DNA of 33,213 nucleotides from Glaciihabitans sp. Lineage in GTDB: Bacteria > Actinomycetota > Actinomycetes > Actinomycetales > Microbacteriaceae. Shown in pieces: positions 232 to 22,866 of this stretch. The notes below the pieces were generated by a model. It was not told the origin of the DNA and did no database searches. It saw only the letters and a program-made list of their open reading frames with translations. The position numbers and the translations under genes are program-made. The DNA lies in NCBI GenBank assembly GCA_017882805.1, contig JADGOT010000019.1, positions 1-33,213 of the forward strand, written 5' to 3'. Positions within the stretch are counted from its first letter, which is position 1; each line of letters begins with the position of its first letter.

Positions 232-1572
232 TTATTTCAGTGGTGTGCCGCCCGCGTTTCGGTAGGCGATTGTCTTCCTGTAGAGGTTGCCGCCGTCGGT
301 TTCAGCTGTGGTCGACAGGTCTGATCCTTGGCCGAACATCAGAGCCCCGACGTGGGCGCTTGCGACCTGGTCCATGTGGGAGAACAGCCAGTCCACCTTG
401 TCGTCCTGGTAGTGGTAGTCGGTGTTGTTCTGTGCCATGTTGCCGATCGGGATCTGCCAGACGACGATCGGGTGACCGACCGCCTCGGCCATCTGTTTCC
501 AATAGGCGAGTTGCGTGGCCCACTTCTGGTCGCTCCACAATGAGCTGCCATTCCCCTGCTTGATGTTGAGTCCGGAGTCCGTGGATTCAACCTCCCCGAC
601 CAGGAAGTCTGCACCCTTTCCTCCGAGGCCCACGTAAGTTTTGACACATTTATCCACGTTGCCGGGCCAGTCCCAGCAGGTGATGTGCAGGCCGACCTCC
701 GTGTTAGGGGCGTACTTGCGGGTCATGGCGATCAAGCAGCGGGCCAGACCCGCCACGGAGTCCGGCTGATTTCCGCAGTCGGTCGGATTCGCAGCGGTAA
801 CCTGCGCCGGGACCTGGGTCACATCTCCCATCCCTCGTGCGAAACCAAAGAAGTCGGGTTCGAGGTCGATCATGTCGTGCGAGGTGCCGATCTTCTGGAG
901 GAAGAAACGGTAGTCGTTCAGGTATCTGGTGAGGAGATCGGCATGGTTGACCGACTGCACCTCTTGCTGCCACGGAGTAGCAACACCGGGCTGACCGGGC
1001 ACGAGGAGACCGAGTTCAAACCATGTCCACATCACTCGCTGGGGATGCGATTTACCCAAGTAGGTGGCGTGCGCAGCGAGGGCTTCATCGTTGGTGACGA
1101 GCCCCCCGATGCTGCCGCCCACGCAACCCCACCAGCTCGTCCCATCCGGGCAAGACTTCATCGTGTAGTAGCTGCTGTCCGGTGCAGGCGGACTGACGAC
1201 GTATTGGTACTGAGCGTCGAATGGTGCCTGAGTCGAAGGCTTACCAGTCGACATTGTTCCGATCAACACCGTGCTGACGGAGCTTGCCGCCGGAGGCGCG
1301 GCCTTGTGCGACCCTTGCGGGACAGGGGCGGGAGCAACGCCCGTCGGTCCAGGCGTGGGAGTGCTTGTGGCGGCGCCGGTCGGGGTAGCGGTGTCCTGTG
1401 CGGACGCATCTTGCGCAACGGCACCTCCGCTCTCGGCAGCCGCCGCGAGTGCCTGCGCCGAGGTCGCGAGAGTAGAAGTCTTCGGCCCCCTCGGTACCGC
1501 ACCGATCGCGATAACGACTCCAACGACAAGCAAAATAGCGGCAATGATGATGCCCATGCGACGAAAACTCAT
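232..1572 (-). CDS. Secreted or membrane-anchored glycoside-hydrolase-like protein of uncertain family
   Basis: Start re-assigned from 1725 to ATG at 1572 (MSFRRMGIIIAAILLVVGVVIAIG) because of the GGGGGA SD just upstream. N-terminal TM/signal, Pro/Thr linker, then motifs such as MWTWFELG, HDMIDLEPDFFGF, VGLHITCWDW, GEVEST and PIVVWQIPIGN, suggesting a TIM-barrel-like hydrolase. Confidence 0.55.
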   Translation of the reverse strand: MSFRRMGIIIAAILLVVGVVIAIGAVPRGPKTSTLATSAQALAAAAESGGAVAQDASAQDTATPTGAATSTPTPGPTGVAPAPVPQGSHKAAPPAASSVSTVLIGTMSTGKPSTQAPFDAQYQYVVSPPAPDSSYYTMKSCPDGTSWWGCVGGSIGGLVTNDEALAAHATYLGKSHPQRVMWTWFELGLLVPGQPGVATPWQQEVQSVNHADLLTRYLNDYRFFLQKIGTSHDMIDLEPDFFGFARGMGDVTQVPAQVTAANPTDCGNQPDSVAGLARCLIAMTRKYAPNTEVGLHITCWDWPGNVDKCVKTYVGLGGKGADFLVGEVESTDSGLNIKQGNGSSLWSDQKWATQLAYWKQMAEAVGHPIVVWQIPIGNMAQNNTDYHYQDDKVDWLFSHMDQVASAHVGALMFGQGSDLSTTAETDGGNLYRKTIAYRNAGGTPLK

Positions 1573-1924
1573 CAAATCCCCCGGGTTGAATGAAAATCGC
1601 GATTGCTGTCCGAAACCATTACGGTCAGCGCCCAGCGGATATGGAAGACATACTCCGCAGGTGAACCAGAATCGTCGGCGTAGGCCGCTCATGCTGGAAC
1701 TCCTGCGAGCGAGGCTATCTATCACTTCATAGAATAGGTATTGAGTCTAGGCGGCGTCAACAAGCACGCTGGAAATGGATTGACGGTCCAAATTGCAACC
1801 GACTCGAGCATTGCTGTGACCGGAACCCAGGTCGAGCCAGCCAGCGGCTCCTATGCGCTGAACGACAGGCTGCCCAACCCCTCAAGTTGAGAGACCTTCG
1901 CATGCGTGGGATACTTTCGAAACG

Positions 1925-2938
1925 ATGGTAACGATACAGGACGTCGCGAAAGCCGCCGGGGTCTCCCCCATGACGGTCTCGCATGTTATTAACGAGCATC
2001 CGCACGTCAAGGCGAGCACTCGAGAACACGTGCTCGAGGTCATCGCGAAGCTGGACTACCGAGTCAACGTGGCAGCGCGGAACCTCCGCACCGGTCGCAC
2101 AAACACCATCGGTCTCGCAGTACCAGAAATCGACCGGCCCTACTACGGTGAACTTGCCGCCGCTATCATCCGGCACGCGTCGGCTTTCAATCTCCACGTC
2201 GTCATCGAGCAAACCGGAGCGTCCCGAGAGAACGAGCTCGACGCACTCGCTCTCTCTCGCAAACTCATGTACGACGGGCTGATTCTGAGCACCGTCGGCC
2301 TCGGCCCTAACGATGCAGATCTGCTGCCCGTCGACTACCCCGTGGTATTGCTCGGCGAGCGCATCTTCGCCGGCCCTCTCGACCATGTTGCGATGCCAAA
2401 CGTGGATGGCGCCAGGGCAGCGACCCAAGAGTTGATTGATGGAGGGTGCAAGCGAATCGCTATTGTTCGGGATAACAACGCCTCTCAGACCGGAATGTCG
2501 AGCTTGCGTTTCGCCGGCTACCTGGACGCGCTCGAATCGAGCGGAATTCCATTCGACCCGGAGCTATCCGTTCACGTTGACGAGTACTCGCTGGCAAGCG
2601 GCTTCGACGTCGGCATGCGGCTCGCGAATTCGGGCCTGAGCTTCGACGCGGTGTTCTGCATTACGGACATCCTTGCTCATGGCCTCTTGCGTGCGTTTGC
2701 GACTGCGCAAGTTGCCGTACCAGGCAAGGTGCGAGTGATTGGCTTCGATAACATCGAGCAAGATCAGTACAGCGTGCCTTCGCTGTCGTCAGTGGACCCG
2801 AATCACGACCTCATGGCGAAAACCGCGGTCGAGCTACTTGTGAGCAGAATCTCCGGCAAGCCTCGAACCGATCAGCGCGACTATGTTGGCTCGTTTCGAG
2901 TGGTCACTCGCGAATCCAGTTCAGCTCCCGCGCCGTGA
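1925..2938 (+). CDS. LacI-family transcriptional regulator
   Basis: MVTIQDVAKAAGVSPMTVSHVINEHPHVKASTREHVLEVIAKLDYRVN is a canonical LacI HTH plus hinge, followed by a periplasmic-binding-like domain. Confidence 0.95.
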   Translation: MVTIQDVAKAAGVSPMTVSHVINEHPHVKASTREHVLEVIAKLDYRVNVAARNLRTGRTNTIGLAVPEIDRPYYGELAAAIIRHASAFNLHVVIEQTGASRENELDALALSRKLMYDGLILSTVGLGPNDADLLPVDYPVVLLGERIFAGPLDHVAMPNVDGARAATQELIDGGCKRIAIVRDNNASQTGMSSLRFAGYLDALESSGIPFDPELSVHVDEYSLASGFDVGMRLANSGLSFDAVFCITDILAHGLLRAFATAQVAVPGKVRVIGFDNIEQDQYSVPSLSSVDPNHDLMAKTAVELLVSRISGKPRTDQRDYVGSFRVVTRESSSAPAP

Positions 2939-3264
2939 CCGTGGATTTCGGCAGGGACCGGGTCATCAAACGGGTTAGGAACCCATTCCGCCGATTCTGA
3001 CGCCGGCTCGGTGTCCGCCATCAGGCTGTCACGAATTATTTGCCGCGGATCGTACTGTCGGGGATCGAGCTTCTTCCAGTCGATGTCGCTGTACTCCGGG
3101 CCCAACTCGTCTCGCATTCGAGCCTGCGCACCGTCCACCATGTTGCGGAATGAGCGCACGAGCCGCGCGAGCTTTGCCGCATACTCCGGCAGCTTCGCGG
3201 GGCCAATCAGGAGCACAGCAACAATGCAGATGACGACGAACTTGTCTGGCGAAAAGTCCAGCAT
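2881..3264 (-). CDS. tatB: TatB-like twin-arginine translocase subunit
   Basis: MLDFSPDKFVVICIVAVLLIGPAKLPEYAAKLARLVRSFRN...DWKKLDPRQYDPRQIIRDSL: N-terminal TM, GP-x-LP hinge, amphipathic helix and the actinobacterial TatB tail DWKKLDPRQYDPR. Confidence 0.85.
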   Translation of the reverse strand: MLDFSPDKFVVICIVAVLLIGPAKLPEYAAKLARLVRSFRNMVDGAQARMRDELGPEYSDIDWKKLDPRQYDPRQIIRDSLMADTEPASESAEWVPNPFDDPVPAEIHGHGAGAELDSRVTTRNEPT

Positions 3265-3305
3265 CGTTCAGTCCCTTCCCCACCTGAGATCGAGTGGCCT
3301 CGGCG

Positions 3306-3515
3306 CTACTTGGTCAGCTCGGGTGCGTCTGCGACGGTGTGAGCAATACCGGTGTTACTCGAGGCGTCGTCGCCCGGCTGGGAAAGCTCGCTCTTGAAGA
3401 TCTTGGTCGATTGGCCGACCGCCTTGGCCAGCGCGGGTAGCCGCGTCGCGCCAAATAGCAGAACTACCACGGCGAGGATGATGAGGGCGTGCCAACCGGT
3501 GAGGTTTGAAAGCAT
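3306..3515 (-). CDS. tatA: TatA-like twin-arginine translocase subunit (69 aa)
   Basis: Start re-assigned from 3683 to ATG at 3515: MLSNLTGWHALIILAVVVLLFGATRLPALAKAVGQSTKIFKSEL, a typical TatA TM, FGxxxLP hinge and amphipathic helix. Confidence 0.85.
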   Translation of the reverse strand: MLSNLTGWHALIILAVVVLLFGATRLPALAKAVGQSTKIFKSELSQPGDDASSNTGIAHTVADAPELTK

Positions 3516-3546
3516 GATGTCTCTTTCTGTTAGTGGAGGATGAAAC

Positions 3547-4449
3547 TCACTTGATTCCCGAGCTGACGAAGCCTCGGACGTAGCTCCGCTGGGCGAACAG
3601 GAACAGGATGACCACGGGGAGTATGTAGATGAACGACCCGGCGGCGAGCAATTGCGGCAACAGGATTCCGTGAGCGTTGTCATAGCCGGTCGCGATGCCC
3701 ACAGCGAGGGTCGTGTTGTCAGCGTTCAGGAACAGTGTGGGCGCCACGTAGTCCCCCCAAGTCGCATTGAACGAGATAACGAACGCGGTAACCATAAGCG
3801 GCCTGGACAGAGGCACGAAGATCGAAATGAACGTTCGGAGGCGACCCGCGCCATCGAGCCGGGCAGCCTCTTCCAGCTCCTTCGGGAAGCTCGCATAGAA
3901 CTGGCGGTAGAGGAAAATCGCGTACGGCGCGCCGGCAGTCCCCCACAGAACCCACGGCCAATATGTGCCGATAAGCCCGAACTGCGAAAACAGCAAATAG
4001 GTCGGGATCAGCGTCACGATTTGTGGAACGATCATCATTCCGATGAGCACGGCAAAGAGTGCACGCTTTCCCGGTCCCTTGAGGCGCGCAAATCCGTATC
4101 CAACCAAGGCCGAACTAAGCGTCGTCAACAGGCTGTACACCACCGCAATGAAGGTTGAGATCGCGGCGAACTTGAAATACGGGATCTGGTTGAAGGCGTC
4201 AGGAATGTTCTGCCAACGCCAATCGGTCGGGAACCAGGAATTTGCACCCAGCTCAGACGCGGGCGTGAGGCCCTTGATCGCGAGAGCCACAAAAGGAAGG
4301 AACAGCGCGATGGAGACGACGAGCAGGAGCGTGAACTTGACGGGGTGACGCTCGGGCCGATTCTTGCGGTTGGGGCTCGAGGTCACTTTGTCCATCGGGG
4401 CGGCAGGCTTTGGCGCAGAAGACCGGTCCGTCTTTTCAAGGACGCTCAT
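3547..4449 (-). CDS. Carbohydrate ABC transporter permease (MalG/UgpE-like)
   Basis: Multi-TM protein with the EAA-loop motif ELEEAARLDGAGRLRTFISIFVPLSRP. Confidence 0.92.
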   Translation of the reverse strand: MSVLEKTDRSSAPKPAAPMDKVTSSPNRKNRPERHPVKFTLLLVVSIALFLPFVALAIKGLTPASELGANSWFPTDWRWQNIPDAFNQIPYFKFAAISTFIAVVYSLLTTLSSALVGYGFARLKGPGKRALFAVLIGMMIVPQIVTLIPTYLLFSQFGLIGTYWPWVLWGTAGAPYAIFLYRQFYASFPKELEEAARLDGAGRLRTFISIFVPLSRPLMVTAFVISFNATWGDYVAPTLFLNADNTTLAVGIATGYDNAHGILLPQLLAAGSFIYILPVVILFLFAQRSYVRGFVSSGIK

Positions 4450-5405
4450 TTGACGTCACCCTTCTGATCGGGGTCAACGGCGTAGTAGACGCTTCGTCCA
4501 CCGATCCGGAAGACGATCGCTGTCAGAATCAGGATCACGACGACGAAAACGATGATCATCGCCGAGCCGTAGCCATACCGCGAGTACTGGAAGAACTGGC
4601 TCCAGACATCCACCATGTAAAGCCGGTTCGCGACGGGCACCGACGCGACGGTCTGGGTTACGCCAACCGGCGCAAGAAGCAGCGCCGGAATGAAAACCTG
4701 CAGCGTAGTGATCAGCGTGAGGACTGTCTGGAAAAGGAGTATTGGCGAGATCGCGGGCAGGGTGACATGCCTGAATGTCGCCAGCGCACCCGCCCCGTCC
4801 ATCTTCGCGGCCTCGAGTTGCTCAGCGTCCACGGTCTGGAGTGCGGCCAGGTAAATGATGATGCCGGCGCCGATGCCCCACAGCATGACGACCAGCAGGG
4901 TGATGAACGCATTGTTGCCCGTCACCCAACTCACGGGATGAATCCCAAAGGTTCCGAGGACCCGGTTGACCGAACCCGAATCCTTGTCGAAGATCACCTT
5001 CCAAATCAGCGCGGCCGCGACCGCGGGCACGATGGCTGGCAGAAAGATGATGGTGCGAAAGACAATCCGTCCCTTTACCTTTTCGTTGAGCCAGATCGCC
5101 AGTACAAGACTGCCAAGGATGGTGGCCGGCACGACTATCGCTACGAGGAGGAGGGTTTTGCTTAGCGCTGACCAGGTATCCGGCGACGACAGTACTTCCG
5201 CATAGTTCGCCAACCCCACCCATGGTTTGAACGGAGAGATCCCGTCCCATGCAGTGAAGCTGACGTAGAGGGCATAGCCCAATGGAAATACGGTGAGTAC
5301 CGCCGTGCCCAATAGCCACGGTGAAATGAAACCGTAGAAGGCGAGGCCGTCGCGTCGACGCGCGCCCCGAATAGACCTCCGCCGGATACCGGTCAACGTT
5401 GTCAA
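4446..5405 (-). CDS. Sugar ABC transporter permease (MalF/UgpA-like)
   Basis: Multi-TM protein with EAA-loop EQLEAAKMDGAGALATFRHVTLPAISP. Its 3' end overlaps the next permease start by 4 bp. Confidence 0.92.
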   Translation of the reverse strand: MTTLTGIRRRSIRGARRRDGLAFYGFISPWLLGTAVLTVFPLGYALYVSFTAWDGISPFKPWVGLANYAEVLSSPDTWSALSKTLLLVAIVVPATILGSLVLAIWLNEKVKGRIVFRTIIFLPAIVPAVAAALIWKVIFDKDSGSVNRVLGTFGIHPVSWVTGNNAFITLLVVMLWGIGAGIIIYLAALQTVDAEQLEAAKMDGAGALATFRHVTLPAISPILLFQTVLTLITTLQVFIPALLLAPVGVTQTVASVPVANRLYMVDVWSQFFQYSRYGYGSAMIIVFVVVILILTAIVFRIGGRSVYYAVDPDQKGDVK

Positions 5406-5435
5406 TGTGTCCTACCTACCTCGCAGCTAGCCGGC

Positions 5436-6800
5436 CTACTTGCCCAGCTGCACCTTGCCGTTTGCAAGCACCGCGTTGACGGCTGTCGTCAGCGCGTCTG
5501 CCAACTTACCTGCGCTGTCACCGGCGGTAGCAGCCGCGGCGAACGCGGGAGTAACTACCGCGTTCATTGCCGAAGCGAGCGCGTACGGCGATGCAAGCGG
5601 AAGTACCTGCTGGAAGTCCAGCTCGGCCTTTTGCACCGCGAGCGACTGTTCCGTGAACTTGGTGTTGTTCGGGAGCAGGGGGAGGTAGGACTTGATCGAC
5701 GGCAGGCCGCTTCCGGACTCCGCGCGAACCTTCGCCCCCGCGCCGGCGCAGTACCACTCGATGAACTCGAAAGCGCCACCGGGGTTGGCGGCCTTGGTCG
5801 GTATCCAGTATCCGACGGCGCCGAACGACGGGCTTACCCGCTTCGAACCGAGCATTGGCGCGGCAGCGAACTTGGTCGTGGTCTGCAGCTTCGGGGCGGT
5901 CTGCTGAAGGAAGCCGTTGAACCAGTAGCCCAGCTGAACGTTTGCCTGCTTTCCGGCGAAGTACTGCGGTCCATCCCAGTCCGGGCTCGGGTTGGTCGGT
6001 GAGTAGCTGACGTTCGCCTTCGTCGCGTCAAGGAACCACTTGAGGACGGCCGTGACCTCGGGCGAGCTGAAGTCAACCTTCGCCAGTCCTGGCTGGAGAA
6101 CCCGTCCGCCGTTGGTCGCAGCCATCGCCTCGATGATGTCCATTGCGGGCAGCAGTGTGAACAGGCCGTACTGAGTGGTCGTTCCACCACTGCTCTTGGT
6201 TAGCTTGCGACCCGCATCCAGGAGTTCGTCGTAGCTGATCGGCTTGTTCGGGTCGGGCTCGGTAAGGCCAGCCTCGCTCCACGCTTGGCTGTCGTACCAC
6301 CACATGGAGTCCTGCGACCAGTCCTTCGTCATTCCGTAGCGAGAGCCCTTGCCCTGGGTTGCTCCGTCCCACTTCCACACGTCGTTAATGGGAAGGATGT
6401 CGGACTCCTTGATTACCGTGCTCTGCGCGAAGTACGGGTCCAGGTTGGTCGCAATGCCACGAGACGCGTAGTACGGCGTGACGTCGATACCGGAGTTCTC
6501 AAAGAGGTCCGGCGGGTTTCCGGCCGCGAGCATTGCGTTGGCACGTGTCGGGTCGGTGTTAATCAAGCTGAGCTTGAGGTGCGGGTGGCTCGCTTCGAAG
6601 TCCGCCTGCTGCTTGGCTGTGATCTCGCCCGGGCTCGCCATGATGGTGACGGTGCCGGCCTTGGCCTTCTTGGCAGTTCCGACGGCTCCGCCGGCTGCGG
6701 TCGGCGAACAACCCGCGAGGGTTGCCACGCCGGCGAATGCGGCGAGTCCCGCCGCACCCGTGAGCAGCGTGCGCCTGGTGACTCCACTGTCTTGCGTCAT
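5436..6800 (-). CDS. Extracellular sugar-binding lipoprotein of an ABC importer with putative Tat signal
   Basis: N-terminus VTRRTLLTGAAGLAAFAGVATLAGCSPT has a twin arginine, hydrophobic stretch and lipobox LAGC. Body resembles family 1 solute-binding proteins. SD AAGGAGA upstream. Confidence 0.92.
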   Translation of the reverse strand: MTQDSGVTRRTLLTGAAGLAAFAGVATLAGCSPTAAGGAVGTAKKAKAGTVTIMASPGEITAKQQADFEASHPHLKLSLINTDPTRANAMLAAGNPPDLFENSGIDVTPYYASRGIATNLDPYFAQSTVIKESDILPINDVWKWDGATQGKGSRYGMTKDWSQDSMWWYDSQAWSEAGLTEPDPNKPISYDELLDAGRKLTKSSGGTTTQYGLFTLLPAMDIIEAMAATNGGRVLQPGLAKVDFSSPEVTAVLKWFLDATKANVSYSPTNPSPDWDGPQYFAGKQANVQLGYWFNGFLQQTAPKLQTTTKFAAAPMLGSKRVSPSFGAVGYWIPTKAANPGGAFEFIEWYCAGAGAKVRAESGSGLPSIKSYLPLLPNNTKFTEQSLAVQKAELDFQQVLPLASPYALASAMNAVVTPAFAAAATAGDSAGKLADALTTAVNAVLANGKVQLGK

Positions 6801-6979
6801 AGCTGTGTCTCCTTGGTAAATGTAATCGATTCGACTGGAGTCGAACCGTCGGGGATTGCGATGGTCATGTCAGCGGGAGATTTCCGGGCGATGAGTGATC
6901 GCGCGACGAACCCGTTTCGCGGTCGATGCGGATGTGAGCCAGTCGACAGAAAGGTTTCCAATGAGAGCGAATCGATCAT
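6797..6979 (-). CDS. Putative 60-aa small protein or leader peptide, ATGA-overlapped with the SBP gene
   Basis: MIDSLSLETFLSTGSHPHRPRNGFVARSLIARKSPADMTIAIPDGSTPVESITFTKETQL*. Strong SD (AGGAAGGAG, about 6 nt before ATG). Its TGA overlaps the SBP ATG. Confidence 0.55.
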   Translation of the reverse strand: MIDSLSLETFLSTGSHPHRPRNGFVARSLIARKSPADMTIAIPDGSTPVESITFTKETQL

Positions 6980-7036
6980 CAACTGCTCCTTCCTGATCGA
7001 CGTTGACCGCTTTCGCTCCGTTCGCGAAAGCCGTGC

Positions 7037-7048
7037 TGTATCGTTACA
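7037..7048. promoter_or_regulatory. Putative LacI-family operator TGTATCGTTACA
   Basis: Part of an 18-bp sequence GCTGTATCGTTACATGAA (7035-7052) that recurs inverted at 7129-7146, in the divergent SBP/GH43 region. Confidence 0.75.
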
Positions 7049-7132: not shown

Positions 7133-7144
7133 TGTAACGATACA
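7133..7144. promoter_or_regulatory. Putative LacI-family operator TGTAACGATACA (inverted copy)
   Basis: Exact reverse complement of 7037-7048, with 18 bp of total identity. Centre-to-centre spacing is 96 bp. Confidence 0.75.
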
Positions 7145-7265: not shown

Positions 7266-8186
7266 GTGTCGTCCGATTCGCCGTCGACGGAGACCTCCGC
7301 CGGGCTGCCGTCGCCATTAGCCGGCTACCTTGCCGACCCAAACCTGGCTGTCCTCGATGGCACCTTCATGCTCTACCCAACGACCGACGGCACCGAGAAT
7401 TGGGCGGCGACCTCTTTTAGCGCATTTTCCTCACCGGACCTGGTGAGCTGGAAGGACCACGGGGTCATTCTCGAGTTGGGTACTCACGTAGCCTGGGCGA
7501 GGGTGGAGGCGTGGGCGCCGGCCATCGGGCACCGCAGCGACAAGTACTACTTGTACTTCACTGCGGAGTCCAACATTGGTGTGGCTACCGCCGACTCCCC
7601 CTTCGGACCATTTGTTGATCTCGGCCGGCCACTGGTTGCCGACGGCCAATTCTCGGGACGCGCCATTGATCCCGCGGTCTTTGTCGATGGCGACGGGAAG
7701 AGCTACCTCTACTGGGGAAACGGCGAGGCGCACGTGGTCGAGCTGGGACCTGACATGATCTCGTTCGACCACTCAAAGGTTGTCACTTGGACCCCCACGG
7801 AGTTCCGCGAGGCACCCTGGGTACATAAGCGGCGCGGTATCTACTATCTCTCCTGGTCGGTCGATGACACGCGAAGCGCTAACTATCGCGTTCGGTATGC
7901 GACGGGAAGCTCGCCATACGGGCCCTGGACGGATCGCGGCATACTGCTCGAAAAGGTTCCCGACCGGGGAATTCTCGCAACCGGACACCATTCGATCGTG
8001 AACGTCCCGAATACGGACGATTGGATCATTGCCTATCACCGGTTCGCCATTCCGGGCGGCGACGGCTTTCACCGAGAGGTCTCGTTCGACCGCCTGGTGT
8101 ACAACGCCGACGGAACAATTCAGAAGGTCGTACCTTCGTCAGAACCATTACGCATTCCACTCCAGCCCGAAAGGTTTGGCGCTTAG
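7266..8186 (+). CDS. Glycoside hydrolase family 43-like protein (intracellular)
   Basis: GTG start. ADPNLAVLDGTFMLYPTTDG, VEAWAPAIG, AIDPAVFVDGDGKSYLYWGNG and FREAPWVHKRRGIYYLSWS match the five-bladed GH43 pattern. No signal peptide. Confidence 0.88.
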   Translation: MSSDSPSTETSAGLPSPLAGYLADPNLAVLDGTFMLYPTTDGTENWAATSFSAFSSPDLVSWKDHGVILELGTHVAWARVEAWAPAIGHRSDKYYLYFTAESNIGVATADSPFGPFVDLGRPLVADGQFSGRAIDPAVFVDGDGKSYLYWGNGEAHVVELGPDMISFDHSKVVTWTPTEFREAPWVHKRRGIYYLSWSVDDTRSANYRVRYATGSSPYGPWTDRGILLEKVPDRGILATGHHSIVNVPNTDDWIIAYHRFAIPGGDGFHREVSFDRLVYNADGTIQKVVPSSEPLRIPLQPERFGA

Positions 8187-8856: not shown

Positions 8857-10626
8857 TCAGTTCATCTGCGTTTGATAGAGCTCTGAATAGCGGCCTCGGA
8901 GCTTGAGCAGCGCGTGGTGATTGCCGTGCTCGACGATCTTTCCGTTTTCCACGACGAGGATTGTGTCGGCCGCGCGAACCGTTGTAAGGCGGTGGGCGAT
9001 CACGAGTGTGCTTCGGCTTCTGGCGGAGCGCACGAGCGACTCGCGAATGAGTGCCTCTGATTCCGAATCGAGTGCCGAGGTAGCTTCGTCAAGCAGCAAG
9101 AGACGGGGCACGCGGATGAGTGCTCGGGCGAGCGCTATTCGTTGTCGTTGACCTCCCGAGAGCTGAGCCCCGCGCTCTCCGACAGCCGTATCGAGTCCGT
9201 CGGTAAATTGGCGGACAAAGTCAAGCGCGTTCGCTTCGTGAAGTGCAGCGTAGATCTCCTCTTCTGTGAAACCCGAACTGCCGTACGTCACGTTCTCTCG
9301 GATCGTGCCCCTGAACATGACTGCCTCTTGCGGGACGACGGACACGAATCGTCGAAACGTCCGTCGATCGATGTGCTCCAGGTTCACTCCATCGAGCAAC
9401 ACCTGACCGGCCGTGGGGCGGAGAAAACCTAGCGCGAGGTTGAGAAGCGTCGACTTTCCCGACCCGGAAGATCCGACCAGCGCGACGAGTCCGCCCGGGG
9501 CAAGCTCCATCGATACGCCGTCGACCGCGGGAGCGATTTGCCCAGAGTAGGAGTAGGTGACGTCGGCAAAGGTAATCCGACACTCTGGATCTGACACCTC
9601 GATCTTGCCGTGGTTAGGCTCGAGATCTCGCTCGTCCAGGAGCGATGCGATCGACCCCATTGCGTTGATGCCTCGCGAAATGACCGGGGCCAGACCGGTG
9701 AGTGAGATCACGCTCCCCGTCAACAAGGCGACGTACGAGCCCAGCAGCACGATGTCGCCCGCGGTAACTCCGGAAACACCGCCCAGGGCAATGAAGGCGC
9801 CGCCTAGAACAGCGAACAGCGAGAGCGCCTGGAAGGCAATCCAGCCAACGGCACCGAACCGCCCGATCAGAATGTCCAGGTGAAACCCGGATGCCTGCAC
9901 GCCTCGGGCCGCCTCCGTAAGCCGGCTGACCGCGACCTCCTCGATTCCGTGGGCGCGGACAACGTTCACCATGCTCGCCATTTCGCCGGCGCGCGACGAC
10001 AGGAGTTCCACGTCGTTCCGATATTTCTCGTTCCCACGGGCGATTGGGCGCCTGGTTGCAGTGACGAGCGCTCCGCCGATAGGAACCGCGATGAGCAGGA
10101 TGGGCAGAAACGCTGGTTCGCTGATCCCCGTTGCGACGAATGCACCGATGAGCGTGAGCACGGAAGACAGGCCCAACGGCAGCACGCTGTCGATGAAGCC
10201 CTCGACACTCTCGACGTCGCGGACGAGCTTGTTCTGAATGAACGCCGCGCTCGAGCGGGTGTAATAGAGGATCGAGAGTTCTTGCATCCGCTCGGCCAGC
10301 AACGTTCGCAACGTGAAGGAGATTTCGCGCGTCCCGCGGCTGAACAGGCGCACGAACAGCATGTTGAGCGGATAGTTCTGCGCGAGCAGCACTACTCCGA
10401 GTCCGCCATAAATCCACAACTGAGTGAGCGTGCCATGCGCCACGACCAGGTCGACAATCCGGGACACCAACACCGGCATCAGCCACACCGGGCTGCTCTT
10501 CACCGTGAACGCAACCGCCGCCACCGCGAACCGCCCGCGATGCCCGCGCGTCAGCTGCCACAGCACCGGCCCAAGACGCGGTCGCCGATCTGCCCCTTCC
10601 GGGTTGACTTTGGCTCTGATTCTCAC
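8857..10626 (-). CDS. ABC exporter, fused TMD-NBD (MsbA/MdlB-like)
   Basis: Six-TM domain plus NBD with Walker A GSSGSGKST, signature LSGGQRQRIALARAL, Walker B LLLLDEATSALD and H-loop IAHRLTT. GTG start as annotated. Confidence 0.92.
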   Translation of the reverse strand: MRIRAKVNPEGADRRPRLGPVLWQLTRGHRGRFAVAAVAFTVKSSPVWLMPVLVSRIVDLVVAHGTLTQLWIYGGLGVVLLAQNYPLNMLFVRLFSRGTREISFTLRTLLAERMQELSILYYTRSSAAFIQNKLVRDVESVEGFIDSVLPLGLSSVLTLIGAFVATGISEPAFLPILLIAVPIGGALVTATRRPIARGNEKYRNDVELLSSRAGEMASMVNVVRAHGIEEVAVSRLTEAARGVQASGFHLDILIGRFGAVGWIAFQALSLFAVLGGAFIALGGVSGVTAGDIVLLGSYVALLTGSVISLTGLAPVISRGINAMGSIASLLDERDLEPNHGKIEVSDPECRITFADVTYSYSGQIAPAVDGVSMELAPGGLVALVGSSGSGKSTLLNLALGFLRPTAGQVLLDGVNLEHIDRRTFRRFVSVVPQEAVMFRGTIRENVTYGSSGFTEEEIYAALHEANALDFVRQFTDGLDTAVGERGAQLSGGQRQRIALARALIRVPRLLLLDEATSALDSESEALIRESLVRSARSRSTLVIAHRLTTVRAADTILVVENGKIVEHGNHHALLKLRGRYSELYQTQMN

Positions 10627-10634
10627 GTTGCTAC

Positions 10635-10646
10635 TGTATCGTTACA
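10635..10646. promoter_or_regulatory. Putative LacI-family operator TGTATCGTTACA
   Basis: CTGTATCGTTACATGA (10634-10649) matches the SBP/GH43 copies exactly. Lies in the 59-bp gap between the ABC exporter and GH29 genes. Confidence 0.75.
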
Positions 10647-10685: not shown

Positions 10686-12215
10686 ATGATTGATCGTTCG
10701 TGGATACCGCAACGCATCGAGTTGCCCGACGATGCAGCGGCGCTTCGCGAGGTCGACCGGGTGATTGAAGACGGACCGTACTCGTCGACTTGGGAATCAC
10801 TTCAGCAGTACCGCCCCCCTCGCTGGTTTGGCGAATCGAAGTTTGGGATATTCATCCACTGGGGCGTGTATTCGGTCCCCGCGTTCGCCGACGAGTGGTA
10901 CTCCCGCAATATGTATCGGCAGGACAGGCCGGAGTTCGACCATCACCGCGAGACCTACGGCGACCAAGCGATGTTCGGCTACAAAGACTTCATTCCCGCC
11001 TTCACAATGAACGAGTTCGATCCCGTGTCATGGGCCGCCCTGTTTCGACGAGCCGGCGCTCAGTACGTAGTCCCGGTCGCGGAGCACCACGACGGTTTCA
11101 CCATGTACGCCAGCGAGCGCACCCGTTGGACGGTCGCGCGGATGGGTCCGAAGCGAGACGTGTTCGGCGACTTGGCGACGGCAGTGCGCGACCAGTCGAT
11201 GGTGGTTGGTGGTTCATCGCACCGTGCGGAGCACTGGTTCTTCATGAACGGTGGGATGCGTTTCGACTCCGATGTTCGGGACCCCGAATTTGGCGATTTT
11301 TACGGCCCCGCTCAGCGCGAGGAGACATCGCCCTCGGAGGCCTACCTTTCGGATTGGCTGCTCCGCACCGTCGAGTTCATCGACCGCAATCGCCCGCAGG
11401 TGCTGTGGTTCGACTGGTGGATCGAAACTCCGGCGTTCGAGCCATACCTGCGTCGGCTAGCCGCCTACTACTACAACCGGGCGGCAGAGTGGGGCATCGG
11501 GGTGGTCATCAACTACAAGTGGAATGCCTTCGCCCCTGGCAGCGCGGTGTACGACATCGAACGTGGCGCGATGGGCGAAGCGCAACCGTTTGTGTGGCAG
11601 AACGACTCATCGGTGTCTCGAAGTTCCTGGTGTTGGACGGAGGGTCACGACTACAAGTCGATTGCCGAGCTCGTTGGAGAGCTCATCGACGTCGTTTCGA
11701 AAAACGGCAATCTCCTTTTGAATATTGGCCCGAAGCCCGACGGAACTATCGCGGCAGCCGAGGTCGCCATCCTCGAATCGATTGGCGACTGGCTGTCGAT
11801 CAATGGCGAAGCGATCTACGGAACCGTTCCGTACCGCGTGCCCGGTGAAGGTCCAACCCAGATCAAGGCTGGATCAATGATCGACGGTGACCAGTCCATC
11901 CTCACGGCCGACGACTTCCGGTTCACGGTGCGAAACGACTTCACTGGCTCGTATTTGTACGCGTCGACGGTCGACTGGCCAACAACAAACTCCATCACCC
12001 TGACCACTCTCGGCCTTCGCCATCAGATTGAGCCACGCACGATTGCGGACGTCAGGCTGCTCGGGGTCGAGGCGCCGCTTGAGTGGCGACGAGAAGACGA
12101 CGGACTGCACGTGAGCCTGCCAGGGGGCGAGCCGAACAAGCACGGCTATTCGCTGAGGATCAGCTTTGTGCCCGACGAGTCCCCACGACGAGCGGATTTC
12201 CTGCACCAGAATTAG
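10686..12215 (+). CDS. Alpha-L-fucosidase, GH29
   Basis: WFGESKFGIFIHWGVYSVPAFADEWYSRNMY, VPVAEHHDGFTMYASERTRWTVARMGPKRDVFGDL and VLWFDWWIETPAFEPYLRRLAAYYYN (candidate nucleophile Asp) are hallmark GH29 segments. No signal peptide. Confidence 0.92.
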   Translation: MIDRSWIPQRIELPDDAAALREVDRVIEDGPYSSTWESLQQYRPPRWFGESKFGIFIHWGVYSVPAFADEWYSRNMYRQDRPEFDHHRETYGDQAMFGYKDFIPAFTMNEFDPVSWAALFRRAGAQYVVPVAEHHDGFTMYASERTRWTVARMGPKRDVFGDLATAVRDQSMVVGGSSHRAEHWFFMNGGMRFDSDVRDPEFGDFYGPAQREETSPSEAYLSDWLLRTVEFIDRNRPQVLWFDWWIETPAFEPYLRRLAAYYYNRAAEWGIGVVINYKWNAFAPGSAVYDIERGAMGEAQPFVWQNDSSVSRSSWCWTEGHDYKSIAELVGELIDVVSKNGNLLLNIGPKPDGTIAAAEVAILESIGDWLSINGEAIYGTVPYRVPGEGPTQIKAGSMIDGDQSILTADDFRFTVRNDFTGSYLYASTVDWPTTNSITLTTLGLRHQIEPRTIADVRLLGVEAPLEWRREDDGLHVSLPGGEPNKHGYSLRISFVPDESPRRADFLHQN

Positions 12216-13149
12216 CCAACAGCCAATCACGTTCCTCGTTGGTGATCGTAATCACCGAGCCGTGACGCGCGTTGGGCGGCAACGCGGCATCCTCGACCGG
12301 AGTCCATTCTCCTGACGCGAGATCGCTCGACTCGAAGAGTCGGTACCCACGTCGGTTGGATTCGTCGATGAGCAAGAACCAGCCGTCGCGATCGAGGAGC
12401 TTTCCCACCGCCGGGCCCTCACCGAAATCGAGCGAACTCTTGCCCACGTCGACGGTAAGCGGAACGAATGCCGGATCAAAGATCGACGTGCCGCGCTCCA
12501 TAAAGACGTGCTTGCTGGGCCCGGAGTCGTCGACGACGTGCGCGTTCGCCGAGAAGCGGTAGGTCGCGTCCGCATCGGTGAGGAACATCGCGTCGATCAC
12601 GTGATGGCCCGCATCGAGGTAGACCTCTGCGGGCGTGAAAGATCGGAAGTCCTTGGTCGTGGACATGAGGAGGCGCTGGTACTGGGACTCATCACGAACA
12701 CCGTCCGGATAGAGAATGGACGCCCAGATGATCGTCCAGGCCTTGTCCTCGTCCGACCAGAACGCCTTCGGCGCCCATGCGTTCCCCGCGTTCTCTGGCG
12801 CCACGGTTGCCAACCATGGACCGTTCCAGGAAACGAGATCGGCCGACTCCCAAACCACAATCGACCTGCTGCCGTGCTCAACCGCGCGTTTCCAGTCGTG
12901 ATCGGGCCAAACCCGCAGATCGGTGGCTATGACAACGAAGCGATTTCGTGCCGAGTCGCGCAGAATGAACGGGTCGCGTACTCCGCGCTCACCTACGTTG
13001 GACCAGAGAACGGGCTGGCCGGCGTTTATCTCGGTCCAGGAATTCATGTTCGGGCCATCGCTCACTGCGAACCGAATCTGTTCGCCGTCTTCTGCGCCCT
13101 CCCCCGCGAAATAGACAAAGAGGTAGGCGCCTTTCTGGCGCGGGGTCAT
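12160..13149 (-). CDS. GH43-like glycosidase (arabinan/xylan-type five-bladed propeller), intracellular
   Basis: GAYLFVYFAGEGAEDGEQIRFAVSDG, RGVRDPFILRDSARNRFVVIATD, SIVVWESADLVSWNGPWL and GNAWAPKAFWSDEDKAWTIIWAS. Confidence 0.8.
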   Translation of the reverse strand: MTPRQKGAYLFVYFAGEGAEDGEQIRFAVSDGPNMNSWTEINAGQPVLWSNVGERGVRDPFILRDSARNRFVVIATDLRVWPDHDWKRAVEHGSRSIVVWESADLVSWNGPWLATVAPENAGNAWAPKAFWSDEDKAWTIIWASILYPDGVRDESQYQRLLMSTTKDFRSFTPAEVYLDAGHHVIDAMFLTDADATYRFSANAHVVDDSGPSKHVFMERGTSIFDPAFVPLTVDVGKSSLDFGEGPAVGKLLDRDGWFLLIDESNRRGYRLFESSDLASGEWTPVEDAALPPNARHGSVITITNEERDWLLANSGAGNPLVVGTRRAQS

Positions 13150-13197: not shown

Positions 13198-13213
13198 ACT
13201 GTATCGATACAGT
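13198..13213. promoter_or_regulatory. Putative LacI-family operator, 16-bp perfect palindrome ACTGTATCGATACAGT
   Basis: Direct reading; divergent region between the GH43-like gene and the beta-helix gene. Confidence 0.8.
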
Positions 13214-13243: not shown

Positions 13244-13255
13244 TGTATCGATACA
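13244..13255. promoter_or_regulatory. Putative LacI-family operator TGTATCGATACA overlapping a candidate -35
   Basis: Second perfect palindromic copy, 44 bp from the first. TTGTAT (13243-13248), 17 bp, TATGGT (13266-13271) reads as a sigma70-like promoter overlapping it. Confidence 0.75.
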
Positions 13256-17138: not shown

Positions 17139-17663
17139 ATGGCTCGGAGTCGTCGGACACTGCTGATAGCCCTTCTTCCTATCGGGATCACTGTCGCTGC
17201 AATTGCGCTCCTCATATTCGGGCTTGGCTACGCCTTTGGTGCATTCCACGACAACGTCGCGCAGAACAAGCTGGCAACGCTAACCAAGTCGCTCGATGCG
17301 TTGGGCGGGCATCAGATATGCGGCGAAGGCGACGCCGGCTTTGGCCCCGACAACACGGACCCCTGGGAACACGTCTGGTATCAGATTCCGAACGATTCCG
17401 TGGCTCGTCCCGTGCTGTTCAGTGCGGCAGCAATAAATGGGTACCCGCTCGCGCCGATGTCCGACAAGTACGTGAACGGCGATCACCGAAACTCCTACTT
17501 CTTCACGTCGACGGTGGGGGAGCCGACGGAGGAGGGCATGGTGGTGGTTGTATACCGTCACCAGTCGTTCAAGCTCGACTGTGCAGCTAAGGCAAGCAAA
17601 GCCGTGGGCGGCGGTGCGATTTTTGAAATCGACCTGGTCCTGCCGTCGCAGACGCGCCGATAG
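17139..17663 (+). CDS. Hypothetical membrane-anchored protein (174 aa)
   Basis: ATG start, N-terminal TM segment LLIALLPIGITVAAIALLIFGLGYAFG, then an extracytoplasmic domain of unknown function. Confidence 0.65.
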   Translation: MARSRRTLLIALLPIGITVAAIALLIFGLGYAFGAFHDNVAQNKLATLTKSLDALGGHQICGEGDAGFGPDNTDPWEHVWYQIPNDSVARPVLFSAAAINGYPLAPMSDKYVNGDHRNSYFFTSTVGEPTEEGMVVVVYRHQSFKLDCAAKASKAVGGGAIFEIDLVLPSQTRR

Positions 17664-18507: not shown

Positions 18508-19491
18508 TCATCCGACCGGCGCGTCACCGCGTAACAGCCCAGCGGCCCTGAGCTCTATCCACAGTTCGCGCGGCACCGTTGCGTTATAGAGTTCGGCATT
18601 GCGGTGCACCTGAGCGGCGTTTCGCATCCCCAACGTGACGTTCACGACGGACGGATGGCACAGCGGAAACGCAATCGCCGCCTGCGGCACCGTGACCCCA
18701 AACCGGGAACACACGTCGGCAATGGCTTCTACCCGTGCTATCAGACGCGCTTCGGCCGGTTGATATTCATACCTGGCATCTGACGCCGGAACGTCGGTTG
18801 CCAGCAACCCTGAGTTGAAGACACCGACGGCGACAACACTCTTGTCCATTGACGACGCCACTCGAAGTGCGTCATCGAGCGAGTCCTGCTCGAGCAGCGT
18901 GTAACGGCCCGCGAGCATTGCCAGGTCGAGGTCGGTGCGCGACAGCAAACGCGCAGCCTCTCGGCCGCTATTGGTGCCGACACCGACGGCGTTGACCACT
19001 CCCTGTTCTCGAAGTTCCACCAGGAATGGAGCGACACGAATTCCCGCATCCGGATCCGCCTGATCGGGGTCGTGAGCGTAGAGGATGTCAACCCGATCGA
19101 GCCCAAGCCGGTCGAGGCTGGCGTCCAGCGATCGCCGAACGCCGTCCCGGGAGAAGTCCCACTGGCGCACGACGTCGTCCGGGACGATGAAGCCGTCGTT
19201 GTCGCGCCCCGTCTTGTGCTCGTTGGGAACGAGGAGGCGCCCGACCTTGGTCGATATCACGTATTCATCGCGAGGATACTTTCGGAGCGCGCGCCCAATC
19301 CGCCGTTCCGACAGGCCAAGCCCGTAGTGCGGTGCAGTGTCGAAATAGCGGATGCCGAGGGCCCAGGCCGCATCGACCGCGGCCTCTGCCTCGGCATCGG
19401 TGGTCTCACGAAACAGGTTCCCGAGACTCGCTGCACCGAATCCGAGCTCGGTCACTCGCAGGCCCGTACGGGCCAGAGTCCGTTCATCCAC
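18508..19491 (-). CDS. Aldo/keto reductase, D-threo-aldose 1-dehydrogenase (L-fucose dehydrogenase)-like
   Basis: Start re-assigned to GTG 19491 (VDERTLARTGLRVTELGFGAASLGNLFRETTDAEAEAAVDAAWALGIRYFDTAPHYGLGLSERRIG), overlapping the upstream gene by 8 bp. Confidence 0.85.
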   Translation of the reverse strand: MDERTLARTGLRVTELGFGAASLGNLFRETTDAEAEAAVDAAWALGIRYFDTAPHYGLGLSERRIGRALRKYPRDEYVISTKVGRLLVPNEHKTGRDNDGFIVPDDVVRQWDFSRDGVRRSLDASLDRLGLDRVDILYAHDPDQADPDAGIRVAPFLVELREQGVVNAVGVGTNSGREAARLLSRTDLDLAMLAGRYTLLEQDSLDDALRVASSMDKSVVAVGVFNSGLLATDVPASDARYEYQPAEARLIARVEAIADVCSRFGVTVPQAAIAFPLCHPSVVNVTLGMRNAAQVHRNAELYNATVPRELWIELRAAGLLRGDAPVG

Positions 19492-20356
19492 GGGCGCTCG
19501 TCCCGAATCGGTATGCGGAACCCGCAGTGCGGGAAAAGATCGCTGCCTGCTCGTCCGCGCTGAGGCTGGATGTGAGCGTCCGAGCGGCACTCAGCCAGGC
19601 GCCATAGCCACCACACAGTTCGACGAGGGGCCAGTCGGACCCGAACATGAGCCGCTCCGGACCAAAGCAGTCGAGCGCAACGACGGCCGCGCGCTCAAGG
19701 TCGCCGACCGACCAACTCTGCCAGTCGGCTTCCATCGTGAGACCGGATAACTTCGCATAGACGTTGGGAAACTCGGCCAGCGCACGCAGGGCTGACTCCC
19801 ACTCCGAAATGTTCTCCGAGCGCAGCGCGGGCTTGGCCAGGTGATCGAGAACAAAAGTCAGGCCAGGGTGTTCGGATGCGATGGCCGCACAATCGGCTAG
19901 CTGCCCCGGCGTGACGACGAGGTCGAATGAGAGGCTCGCGGCCGTGAGCTCGTTGAGGCCCCGCGATACCGTTGCCCTTCTCAGCCACTGCGGATCCGGA
20001 TCGACGTGAGCGAGGTGGCGAATGCCCGAAAGCAGCCCTCCGTTTGGCAATGCGCGCGCCTCGGCTATGCGCGCCCCGACATCCGGGGAAGTCAGGTCGA
20101 CCCACCCCACAATCGCACCAACGGACGCGGGCAGATCCGCCGTCAGGTGGTCGCGCGTCTCCTGACTGGAATTACTGGCCTGCACGAGAACAGCGGACGT
20201 GACGCCGTTGCTCGCCAACACTTCACCGAGGTCGTCGAACCAGAAGTCGCGGTCGATGACGTGCATCGAAACCGGATCGATCCAGTCCTGCGGCGTGCGG
20301 CGACGTTGCCACAGGTGCACGTGCGCGTCGACCACGGCGCCGGAATAGACGCCCAC
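19484..20356 (-). CDS. Amidohydrolase-2 family, L-fucono-1,5-lactonase-like
   Basis: VVDAHVHLWQ, FVLDHLAKP and ERLMFGSDWPL motifs. Probable GTG start at 20356 overlapping the mutarotase stop (TAGTG). Confidence 0.82.
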   Translation of the reverse strand: MGVYSGAVVDAHVHLWQRRRTPQDWIDPVSMHVIDRDFWFDDLGEVLASNGVTSAVLVQASNSSQETRDHLTADLPASVGAIVGWVDLTSPDVGARIAEARALPNGGLLSGIRHLAHVDPDPQWLRRATVSRGLNELTAASLSFDLVVTPGQLADCAAIASEHPGLTFVLDHLAKPALRSENISEWESALRALAEFPNVYAKLSGLTMEADWQSWSVGDLERAAVVALDCFGPERLMFGSDWPLVELCGGYGAWLSAARTLTSSLSADEQAAIFSRTAGSAYRFGTSARG

Positions 20357-20682
20357 TAGTCGAGGTGCCAGACGAGTGTGCCGTCGAACCAGAGCGCCCC
20401 CTCGGGAGTTCCGTCGACGGGTACCTGGCACGGGTCGGTGTGGGTCCACCACTCGAGCGACACCGGATCGGCTTCAATCAGCTTCATGTCCGCCGCGTGA
20501 TTGTCACCGACGTACTCGTAGTACGCAATCAGGGTGTCCCCCGCGATGAAGATCGAGTAGTTGGTGATGTGGGCCGCAGTGATGGTCGCCTCGACTCCGG
20601 GCCACACTGCCGCGTGGAGCCGCAGGTACTCCTCGCGACGCTCGGGCCTGACATTCACAATCAGCCCGTGTCGCTCAACCAT
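20356..20682 (-). CDS. RhaM-type L-rhamnose/L-fucose mutarotase
   Basis: 108 aa: RHGLIVNVRPERREEYLRLHAAVWPGVEATITAAHITNYSIFIAGDTLIAYYEYVGDN...WWTHTDPCQ, a RhaM-like fold signature. Confidence 0.85.
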   Translation of the reverse strand: MVERHGLIVNVRPERREEYLRLHAAVWPGVEATITAAHITNYSIFIAGDTLIAYYEYVGDNHAADMKLIEADPVSLEWWTHTDPCQVPVDGTPEGALWFDGTLVWHLD

Positions 20683-22681
20683 CGACGAGTGCGCTTCCTT
20701 CGGCCGTGTCCCACGGTGCGAGATAGGTCTGAGGCTTCGCGTGAAGGACGGTCTGCAAGGTGAGCCTCACGCTCGTCCCCGGAGGCAAGACAATTTTGAG
20801 ATACGAGCTCTCCACTCTCGAGACGGTCTGCACCGGCTCGATTTCACTCCCGATGTACTCGTAGAAGCTTCCAGTCCAGTTCCCATCGAATGAACCATAA
20901 GTAACGCTCTCGATCTGATTCTCGGCGTACGCGCCAGCCTGGAGGATGACCTTCCGCTGATGCGACGCCGAGAGGTTCACGACCTCGACGATGGTGGCCT
21001 GCGGATCGATCGACGAGACCAAAGCCCCGACGTCTGCGGGAAGGCCAGCCCGTCGCCCGTCGCTGTCCCACCATCGGATGCGCGTCTGCAGCTGTCCGCC
21101 GTTGTAGATCACCTGCGGACCGCCGAGGGTGAGGTGGGTCAGGGCTTCTGTCACGATTGGCTGCACGAGCTGCCAGATGTGGATGTCCGCTTCGTCAACC
21201 GGCTTGTTACCGAACTCTTCAATCAGGGCAAGCCGACGGCGCACCTGGTATTGCGCTGCGGCCAGGATCAACTCGGGATACTCGGGGTTGTCGCCCTCCA
21301 GGTACGTGAACCACGCGTCCTCGTGACCACCCTCCTCCTTTTCGCGTACCGGTCGAACCGTGCGCCAATCGAATCCGCTCCGCTCTCGCAGCGCGCGCAG
21401 CCGAGCGAGGTCCCCCGGATCGTTCGAGAAGTGCCAGAGCGCAAACGGGACAGAGACTTGGATGGGGTTCCAGTCAAAGCGTCCCTTGTCGCTTCGACGA
21501 TACGGAACCAGCAGCGTCGGGGTATCGACTTCTGGCCCGAGATGTGCGCCCCACCAGTGTTTGACGGATGAATCGCTCGTCGAGAACGCTGCCGTTCGAC
21601 CGTTCGCGATCACGTCGTCGTATTGCGCGCGCGCGAGGTCGAGATAAGAGAGGTCTCCGGTGACAATGGCGGCCGCCATCGAGCCAACGGCGGCAGCCTG
21701 GCCCAGACTGTAGATTCCGTGTGGCCAGGTCCATCCGTAGTGCCCGCCATAGAATCGGCCGTCGAGTTGCGAACCGACCACTCCATCGAGTCCGACGTTG
21801 TCGGGGATTATTCCGCCGTTGTCGTTCGCTCGACCGCGCCACCCCGAAACATAGCGCTCAATCCAGTGCGCGTATTTTTCGTCGCCGGTCAATGCAAATG
21901 CGTTGAGCACGAGGCCCGAGATACTCAGGTTCGCGACAACGTCACCGCGCCCGAGGCGCTGCTGCATCTCGGCGCCCAACCGGGGATCCGGCGCGAAGTC
22001 CTTGTGCGGCGCGGGTGCCCCGTCCATCCAGTCGAGCGGAAACCCGTACTTCTTGGCCTCGTCGGCGAGCCACGGGTAATTCTCGGTGTCGGACACGCCC
22101 TCCCGCGCTCCCCCGCTTCCGTTGTGGGGTGCCTTCACGATGTTGAGCGCTTCGTCGTAGTTTCCGTGCTTCGGATCGACGTAAAGATCCGCGAAACGGG
22201 CGGAGCGTTCACGCCATTGCGCTGGAGAGGCGGCCGAGAGAAAGTACATGAAGAGCATCGCTTCGCCCTGGTGGAACCAGTCGTACCCGATCTCGAAATC
22301 GTCTTTGACGATGTTCAGCCCCGTCAGCTGATCGGTGAGTGCTCTCCAATGCTTCTCGCTGGCGGTGAGGATCCTCGCGTCGCCACCCAGCAGGTAATAC
22401 TCGGGCCAATTGAAAAACGTCTCATAGAAGTCGTCCCCGCCGTCGCGCGAACTGAGCTTCCCGACATAACGCAGCGATCCGTCCGGATCGCAAAAGGAGG
22501 TTTCGAATAGTCGCCACGAGTCATCGAGCAGGGCGAACAGTGCCCTCTCCGCGACGGCCCAGGCCGGCGGACTTGTGAGCGGCACCGAGGCGGTGATTGT
22601 GGTCGAGGGAAGGGAGCCTGCAGGATGAGGAGGCGGCATCGGGTGGCTTTCTGTGGGGATCTTCGGCAGGGGAATCTGCAT
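20675..22681 (-). CDS. Uncharacterised 668-aa enzyme-like protein, possibly an (alpha/alpha)-barrel glycan-active protein
   Basis: Full-length ORF with SD (AAAGGAC), translationally coupled to the mutarotase. Helical-repeat-like body (ALTGDEKYAHWIERYVSGW, WTWPHGIYSLGQAAAVGSMAAAIVTGDLSYLDLARAQYDDV) and a C-terminal beta-rich tail. No signal peptide. Family not recognised. Confidence 0.7.
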   Translation of the reverse strand: MQIPLPKIPTESHPMPPPHPAGSLPSTTITASVPLTSPPAWAVAERALFALLDDSWRLFETSFCDPDGSLRYVGKLSSRDGGDDFYETFFNWPEYYLLGGDARILTASEKHWRALTDQLTGLNIVKDDFEIGYDWFHQGEAMLFMYFLSAASPAQWRERSARFADLYVDPKHGNYDEALNIVKAPHNGSGGAREGVSDTENYPWLADEAKKYGFPLDWMDGAPAPHKDFAPDPRLGAEMQQRLGRGDVVANLSISGLVLNAFALTGDEKYAHWIERYVSGWRGRANDNGGIIPDNVGLDGVVGSQLDGRFYGGHYGWTWPHGIYSLGQAAAVGSMAAAIVTGDLSYLDLARAQYDDVIANGRTAAFSTSDSSVKHWWGAHLGPEVDTPTLLVPYRRSDKGRFDWNPIQVSVPFALWHFSNDPGDLARLRALRERSGFDWRTVRPVREKEEGGHEDAWFTYLEGDNPEYPELILAAAQYQVRRRLALIEEFGNKPVDEADIHIWQLVQPIVTEALTHLTLGGPQVIYNGGQLQTRIRWWDSDGRRAGLPADVGALVSSIDPQATIVEVVNLSASHQRKVILQAGAYAENQIESVTYGSFDGNWTGSFYEYIGSEIEPVQTVSRVESSYLKIVLPPGTSVRLTLQTVLHAKPQTYLAPWDTAEGSALVDG

Positions 22682-22755
22682 CGGATACTGTCCTTTTCTG
22701 GTCGACGTCCTTGACGACCTTGCTTGCCATGATTCCGGGCCTCCGACATTACATC

Positions 22756-22770
22756 ATACATGTGACGTAT
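22756..22770. promoter_or_regulatory. Putative GntR/FadR-family operator ATACATGTGACGTAT
   Basis: Imperfect palindrome (ATAC...GTAT) sharing 13/13 bp with the site upstream of the GntR gene. In the divergent promoter of the 668-aa and Zn-ADH operons. Confidence 0.7.
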
Positions 22771-22866
22771 ACTGCAAGAATCCATCTGATGCTGCCCGGC
22801 CCGCCGGGATGAGGCAGAATTGGGATCGCGCGAAGAATTCATCAGATCAATTGAGGAGCATCGTCA

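Follow-up and report, generated by a model that had tools for sequence, protein, structure and literature searches.

The window, i.e., the whole stretch of 33,213 nucleotides analysed here, corresponds to contig C354 of G000, a Microbacteriaceae MAG of 3.01 Mb in 371 contigs (84% complete). Between 2881 and 6800 on the reverse strand, five closely spaced genes follow one another: a sugar-binding protein (SBP) gene (5436..6800, 454 aa), a MalF/UgpA-type permease gene (4446..5405; PF00528 3.7e-14, best NCBIfam matches GlcT/UgpA), a MalG/UgpE-type permease gene (3547..4449; PF00528 2.3e-17, best NCBIfam matches UgpE/MalG), tatA (3306..3515, 69 aa) and, as the last gene of the operon, tatB (2881..3264, 127 aa). 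The two permease genes overlap by 4 bp, and the gaps from permease to tatA and from tatA to tatB are 31 bp and 41 bp; in both, a purine-rich stretch that resembles a Shine-Dalgarno sequence precedes the ATG. The tight one-strand order given in the initial annotation is thus borne out by Pfam, NCBIfam and the gap lengths. No terminator-like site was found between the permease, tatA and tatB genes, and a promoter scan was uninformative. At the other end, the 3' end of tatB overlaps that of the convergent lacI. The SBP and the two BPD_transp_1 permeases (Pfam PF00528/PF01547, NCBIfam) make this a CUT1 sugar ABC importer, and the operon has no ATPase gene of its own. An upstream 61-aa sORF (6797-6982), which had been counted as an operon member, is doubtful as a gene, as its third-position GC is 0.58 versus 0.70–0.80 in real genes, and among the loci fetched nothing resembled it convincingly.

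Searched as a protein against Pfam, the SBP gave no match; PF01547 found it in the genome search at 5.3e-17, and NCBIfam points to a weak NgcE similarity. Its predicted signal peptide MTQDSGVTRRTLLTGAAGLAAFAGVATLAGC (6708..6800, reverse strand) has the form MTQDSGV-TRR-TLLTGAAGLAAFAGVATLAG-C, where the two arginines are residues 9-10 and the lipobox ends at Cys31. The combination of a twin arginine with a lipobox can therefore be read from the sequence as first described, and the pattern TRRTLL...LAGC, with RR before a weakly hydrophobic core and the lipobox after it, is that expected for a candidate RR-lipoprotein substrate of the Tat pathway. On this basis, export of the SBP is predicted to be Tat-dependent. 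It is improbable, in our opinion, that Sec exports the SBP despite its RR and that tatAB serves another Tat substrate. Most sugar SBPs of these genomes do have ordinary lipoprotein signals and RR alone is no proof of Tat use, but the signal here is Tat-like (TRRxLL and a weakly hydrophobic core rich in Gly/Ala), and inspection of the ORF list has revealed no other secreted protein of the cluster that looks clearly like a Tat substrate. The weakest of these exclusions is the product of 17139-17663, in which SRRTLL is followed by a very hydrophobic segment.

Homologues of the SBP, 34–40% identical, are found in four other genera. The SBP-permease operons that encode the four nearest ones contain no tat genes, yet two of these four SBPs carry RR signals. 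Linked tat genes are thus not needed for such SBPs in general, and SBPs of this type were probably exported in folded form before tatAB was added. The same homologues rule out that tatAB is a conserved part of this importer.

The window TatA matches PF02416 at 2.9e-14 (52.5 bits, cut-off 21) and TIGR01411 (TatA/E) with 55.4 bits (cut-off 53.9), and it shows the N-terminal transmembrane helix, FG hinge and amphipathic helix of the TatA/E family (LLFGATRLPALAKAVGQSTKIFKSEL). The window TatB matches PF02416 above the cut-off (5.1e-7), and its best NCBIfam matches are the actinobacterial TatB models, with scores under their equivalog cut-offs. Together with these profile matches, its TatA-like N-terminus with a GP hinge and its longer C-terminus place it among the actinobacterial TatB proteins; it contains the motif DWKKLDPRQYDPRQII, and GPxKLP and LDPRQYDPRxII are common to it and the other TatBs of the genome. 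Identity is 51% between the window TatA and that of contig C156, and 49–53% between the window TatB and the two other TatBs of the genome. In trees, both proteins are too short for the window copies to be placed, and no single source is indicated. A named search for close TatB relatives returned mostly tatB genes of the Arthrobacter and Phycicoccus types, which are not accompanied by sugar operons.

A pattern search has located the palindrome TGTAWCGWTACA six times in the window at up to one mismatch, against 0.06 expected. Two copies of this LacI-type operator, TGTATCGTTACA at 7037..7048 and TGTAACGATACA at 7133..7144, lie in the intergenic region shared by the SBP operon and a divergent GH43 glycoside hydrolase gene (7266..8186, forward strand; PF04616 2e-58). 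Another (10635-10646) separates a GH29 alpha-L-fucosidase gene (10686..12215, forward strand; PF01120 2.5e-97) from a divergent ABC-exporter gene, two more (13200-13211 and 13244-13255) lie between the gene 12160-13149(-) and that of a LamG-domain secreted protein, and one copy with one mismatch covers the lacI start. The LacI-family regulator encoded there (1925..2938, forward strand; PF00356, PF13377), convergent with tatB, is likely the regulator of the cluster. Since operator copies are common to the cluster, the importer should belong to a sugar regulon, and probably tatA and tatB as well. Judged from the shared strand, the gaps of 31–41 bp, the lack of a terminator-like site and the operator upstream, SBP, permeases, tatA and tatB would be co-transcribed, so that the Tat genes would share the regulation of their putative substrate. 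As for what is imported, a fucose-containing glycan is suggested by the GH29 gene and by a group of genes further right, of dehydrogenase, amidohydrolase, aldolase-like and kinase-like type. The genes in 18508-26217 (aldo/keto reductase, amidohydrolase, zinc dehydrogenase, SDR, aldolase-like and PfkB-like) resemble a non-phosphorylating sugar-acid pathway, possibly for fucose. Two long proteins of the glycan cluster, 232-1725(-) and 20675-22681(-), had no Pfam match at 1e-5. The divergent gene 8857-10626(-), which has the operator at 10635-10646 in common with the alpha-fucosidase gene, encodes an exporter-type ABC half-transporter, which is odd for a sugar-uptake regulon.

Outside the window, a PF02416 search of the genome has found TatA on C156 and TatB on C156 and C11 (both of these TatBs score below the Pfam cut-off and are clear by alignment), and the single TatC match of the genome lies on C156. 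G000 therefore has two tatA, three tatB and one detected tatC, and the window indeed contains no tatC, as stated initially; with the MAG at 84% completeness, another tatC may lie in the part that it lacks. The tatB on C11, adjoined by a methyltransferase gene and a gene for a small conserved protein, has the context of the single tatB of other genus members and is therefore the housekeeping copy. The initial annotation had considered that the window genes might be the only tatAB of the genome, i.e., relocated housekeeping genes. This is ruled out by the C11 tatB and by a block of tatA-tatC with a convergent tatB on C156.

In the genus members G001, G002 and G005, tatA-tatC lies between pafBC and a helicase gene, and in G003 tatC is still at this site. 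In G000, pafC ends at C320:2542 and the helicase gene starts at 2550 with no gene between them, and the sister species G004 has the identical 7-bp junction. For both genomes, the only detected TatC belongs to the block of tatA-tatC with convergent tatB (C156 in G000, C30 in G004). This block adjoins a divergent operon with a gene for a twin-arginine lipoprotein SBP, permease genes and a GH42-like gene, which is complete in G004 and cut by the contig end in G000. The C156/C30 TatC is 51–58% identical to other TatCs of the genus and 69% identical to one from another genus. It falls outside the genus TatC clade in the free tree, and a constraint that keeps all genus TatCs, including this one, in one clade is not rejected (p-AU 0.067). 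The block could thus be either a replacement by a transferred set or a relocation with divergence. The original proposal has the window pair work with the chromosomal TatC; this TatC is not in its usual location, as the pafC-helicase site is empty and the single TatC detected lies beside another sugar importer. In G003 (loci L064 and L038), no tatA was found beside the tatC of the pafBC site, and the only TatA match is on another contig; tat genes in this genus are seemingly unusually mobile.

The empty canonical site in G000 and G004, and the two tatA, three tatB and one tatC that G000 keeps, would agree with a more general role, namely that the lineage lost its normal tatA-tatC locus and that its dispersed tat genes, the window pair among them, jointly serve the whole cell with no preference for the SBP. 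We consider this unlikely. The canonical site is empty in G004 as well, yet neither a homologue of the window SBP nor an additional window-type tatA-tatB pair was detected in that genome; as it manages without such a pair, the C156/C30 set appears sufficient. Besides, control by a sugar operator would be odd for a housekeeping function.

To see how far such links extend, we have surveyed 250 genomes of the family by PF02416, of which 37 with three or more matches were listed fully, and 40 regions were fetched. Many of the 250 have more than two matches. Accessory tat sets are common in the family and often adjoin a gene whose product begins with an RR signal, including dioxygenase-like, ferritin-like, SDR and sugar-isomerase-like proteins. 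The pairing of tat genes with sugar SBPs, for which a survey of relatives had been proposed, was found at four independent loci besides the window, all adjoining CUT1 importer operons. In G163, the order SBP-permF-permG-tatA is window-like, with tatA 30 bp behind the permease gene. In G000/G004, the C156/C30 block is divergent from SBP-permease genes-GH42. Complete tat sets are present in two other genera, tatB-tatA-tatC divergent from permF-permG-SBP in G106, and tatA-tatB-tatC on the opposite strand from a nearby SBP-permease genes-GH32 operon in G181. A lone tatA in G001 comes after a sugar importer with LacI-GH32-LacI genes in between. No other genus member carries the window-type tatAB. 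Without the window, about 4 of 35 accessory loci are at sugar operons versus roughly 3–6% expected (p 0.02–0.16), where both the expectation, derived from the number of importer operons, and the count of ~35 are our own rough estimates; the excess is thus modest.

Several other partners were seen in the same survey. At seven loci (L073, L076, L080, L085, L089, L091 and L095), accessory tat genes lie beside the gene of a conserved RR-signal protein that weakly resembles intradiol dioxygenases and whose start is like MSRIPEPEQTPEGPAYEGRLLDRADEEVVDQG; second Tat systems in the surveyed Microbacteriaceae seem to have this partner most often. Accessory sets in G181 (L078) and G021 (L067) also adjoin an RR-signal protein gene, the product being ferritin-like (Ferritin_2) in L078. 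In Paenarthrobacter sp. DKR-5 (L013, 2468-6357), tatA-tatB lies beside genes for a purple-acid-phosphatase-like protein with an SRRGFF signal and a phosphoesterase, an arrangement reminiscent of Bacillus PhoD.

We have further compared the signals of linked and other SBPs. All five directly linked SBPs have RR and a lipobox (TRRTLL in the window, DRRVLL in G004, SRRDMF in G106, SRRGFL in G163 and DRRTVI in G181), and the sixth linked SBP, that of G001, has no RR. Among 49 other sugar SBPs, mostly the best PF01547 matches of the same six genomes, RR occurs in 3 under a strict motif, [STDN]RRx(FLVIM), and in 11 under a loose one, i.e., any RR with this shape and the proper spacing. With the window left out and G001 counted as a failure, the comparison is 4/5 versus 3/49 (Fisher p = 0.0005, strict) or 4/5 versus 11/49 (p = 0.018, loose), for few linked loci and with a home-made motif, not a trained predictor, that was set after the examples had been seen. 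The idea that TatAB serves the linked SBP gains support from this result, because the independent links between Tat genes and importers in the family also involve RR-lipoprotein SBPs; a general need for linked tat genes does not follow, as the homologues do without them.

The distribution also bears on whether the pair is a neutral passenger, recently inserted behind the permease gene and with little effect on export. That tatAB is missing from the nearest SBP-operon homologues and from other genus members, and that the trees tie it to no one source, would be in line with such an insertion. The GC of the left 20 kb of the window (0.60–0.61, versus 0.62–0.64 in other contigs) is likewise compatible with recent acquisition. 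Nevertheless, tatA and tatB are both intact and keep conserved motifs, and the association with RR-lipoprotein SBPs arose repeatedly, so we give this explanation a rather low chance, somewhat below that of the general role discussed above. A contaminant contig is unlikely, as the tetranucleotide composition of the right 13 kb of the window agrees with that of other G000 contigs (r 0.99); the left part deviates more.

Overall, we favour, with a probability of roughly 0.55, the reading that the window TatA and TatB are sugar-inducible accessory Tat subunits, an extra supply for the folded SBP of their own operon that works with the only TatC. As is established for the Tat pathway, the receptor consists of TatB and TatC, whereas permeation depends on TatA. 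In the presence of the sugar, the operon would be released by the LacI-type repressor, and SBP, permeases, TatA and TatB would be made together. The SBP would fold in the cytoplasm and dock with its RR signal on the only TatC of the cell, encoded on C156; co-made TatB would enter the receptor, and co-made TatA would supply protomers that carry the SBP across. After export, the SBP would be lipidated and then serve the permeases. The extra TatA and TatB would raise the capacity on the single TatC upon induction of the sugar operon, and may thus boost the Tat pathway instead of merely duplicating it. It is plausible that the pair works like a dedicated Tat module. More tentatively, Microbacteriaceae sugar importers with Tat-exported SBPs may repeatedly recruit Tat subunits, and in one lineage an importer-linked set may have replaced the housekeeping translocase, leaving the only TatC beside a sugar-uptake operon.

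CUT1 importers of the MalEFG/UgpABE type with LacI control share with the window an SBP, two permeases, glycoside hydrolases, LacI-type operators and the lack of an ATPase gene in the operon, but here the operon runs on into tatA and tatB. In Bacillus subtilis, as summarised in PMC3827258, PhoD is secreted by TatAdCd, encoded by phoD-tatAd-tatCd. As in the window, Tat component genes are linked to one substrate, for which they are specialised in that system, whereas the window has TatA and TatB without TatC and the substrate would be the binding lipoprotein of a sugar ABC importer. The substrate locus of the PhoD type has its own TatC, which is absent from the window and present in the related G106 and G181 loci; for lack of a TatC, the window falls outside this class. 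Campylobacter jejuni also has extra TatA-type subunits, TatA1 and TatA2, with substrate-dependent contributions; the substrates there are mostly redox enzymes, and no sugar-importer operon is known to be involved (PMC4148689). Accessory Tat loci in the same family are also on record, as the second tatC loci of Actinobacteria that are listed in Table 2 of PMC3827258 include one in Microbacterium testaceum. That survey tracks tatC, and in the passages covered we have found no description of extra tatA/tatB without tatC or of a link to sugar importers. Nor did we find, in the open literature covered, a report of tat genes in sugar-importer operons.

Substrate-linked Tat modules are already known; what is new is the recurrent tie of Tat subunits to the binding lipoproteins of sugar importers, with TatA/TatB lacking TatC. 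This suggests that export helpers are supplied by some sugar importers themselves, and it touches on two open questions, namely why bacteria export folded binding proteins and why genomes keep several TatA/TatB copies. If true, it would warn that tat surveys based on tatC only miss such modules, and the recurrent link between accessory Tat genes and RR-lipoprotein SBPs would allow substrate-specific Tat subunits to be studied in natural, probably inducible systems.
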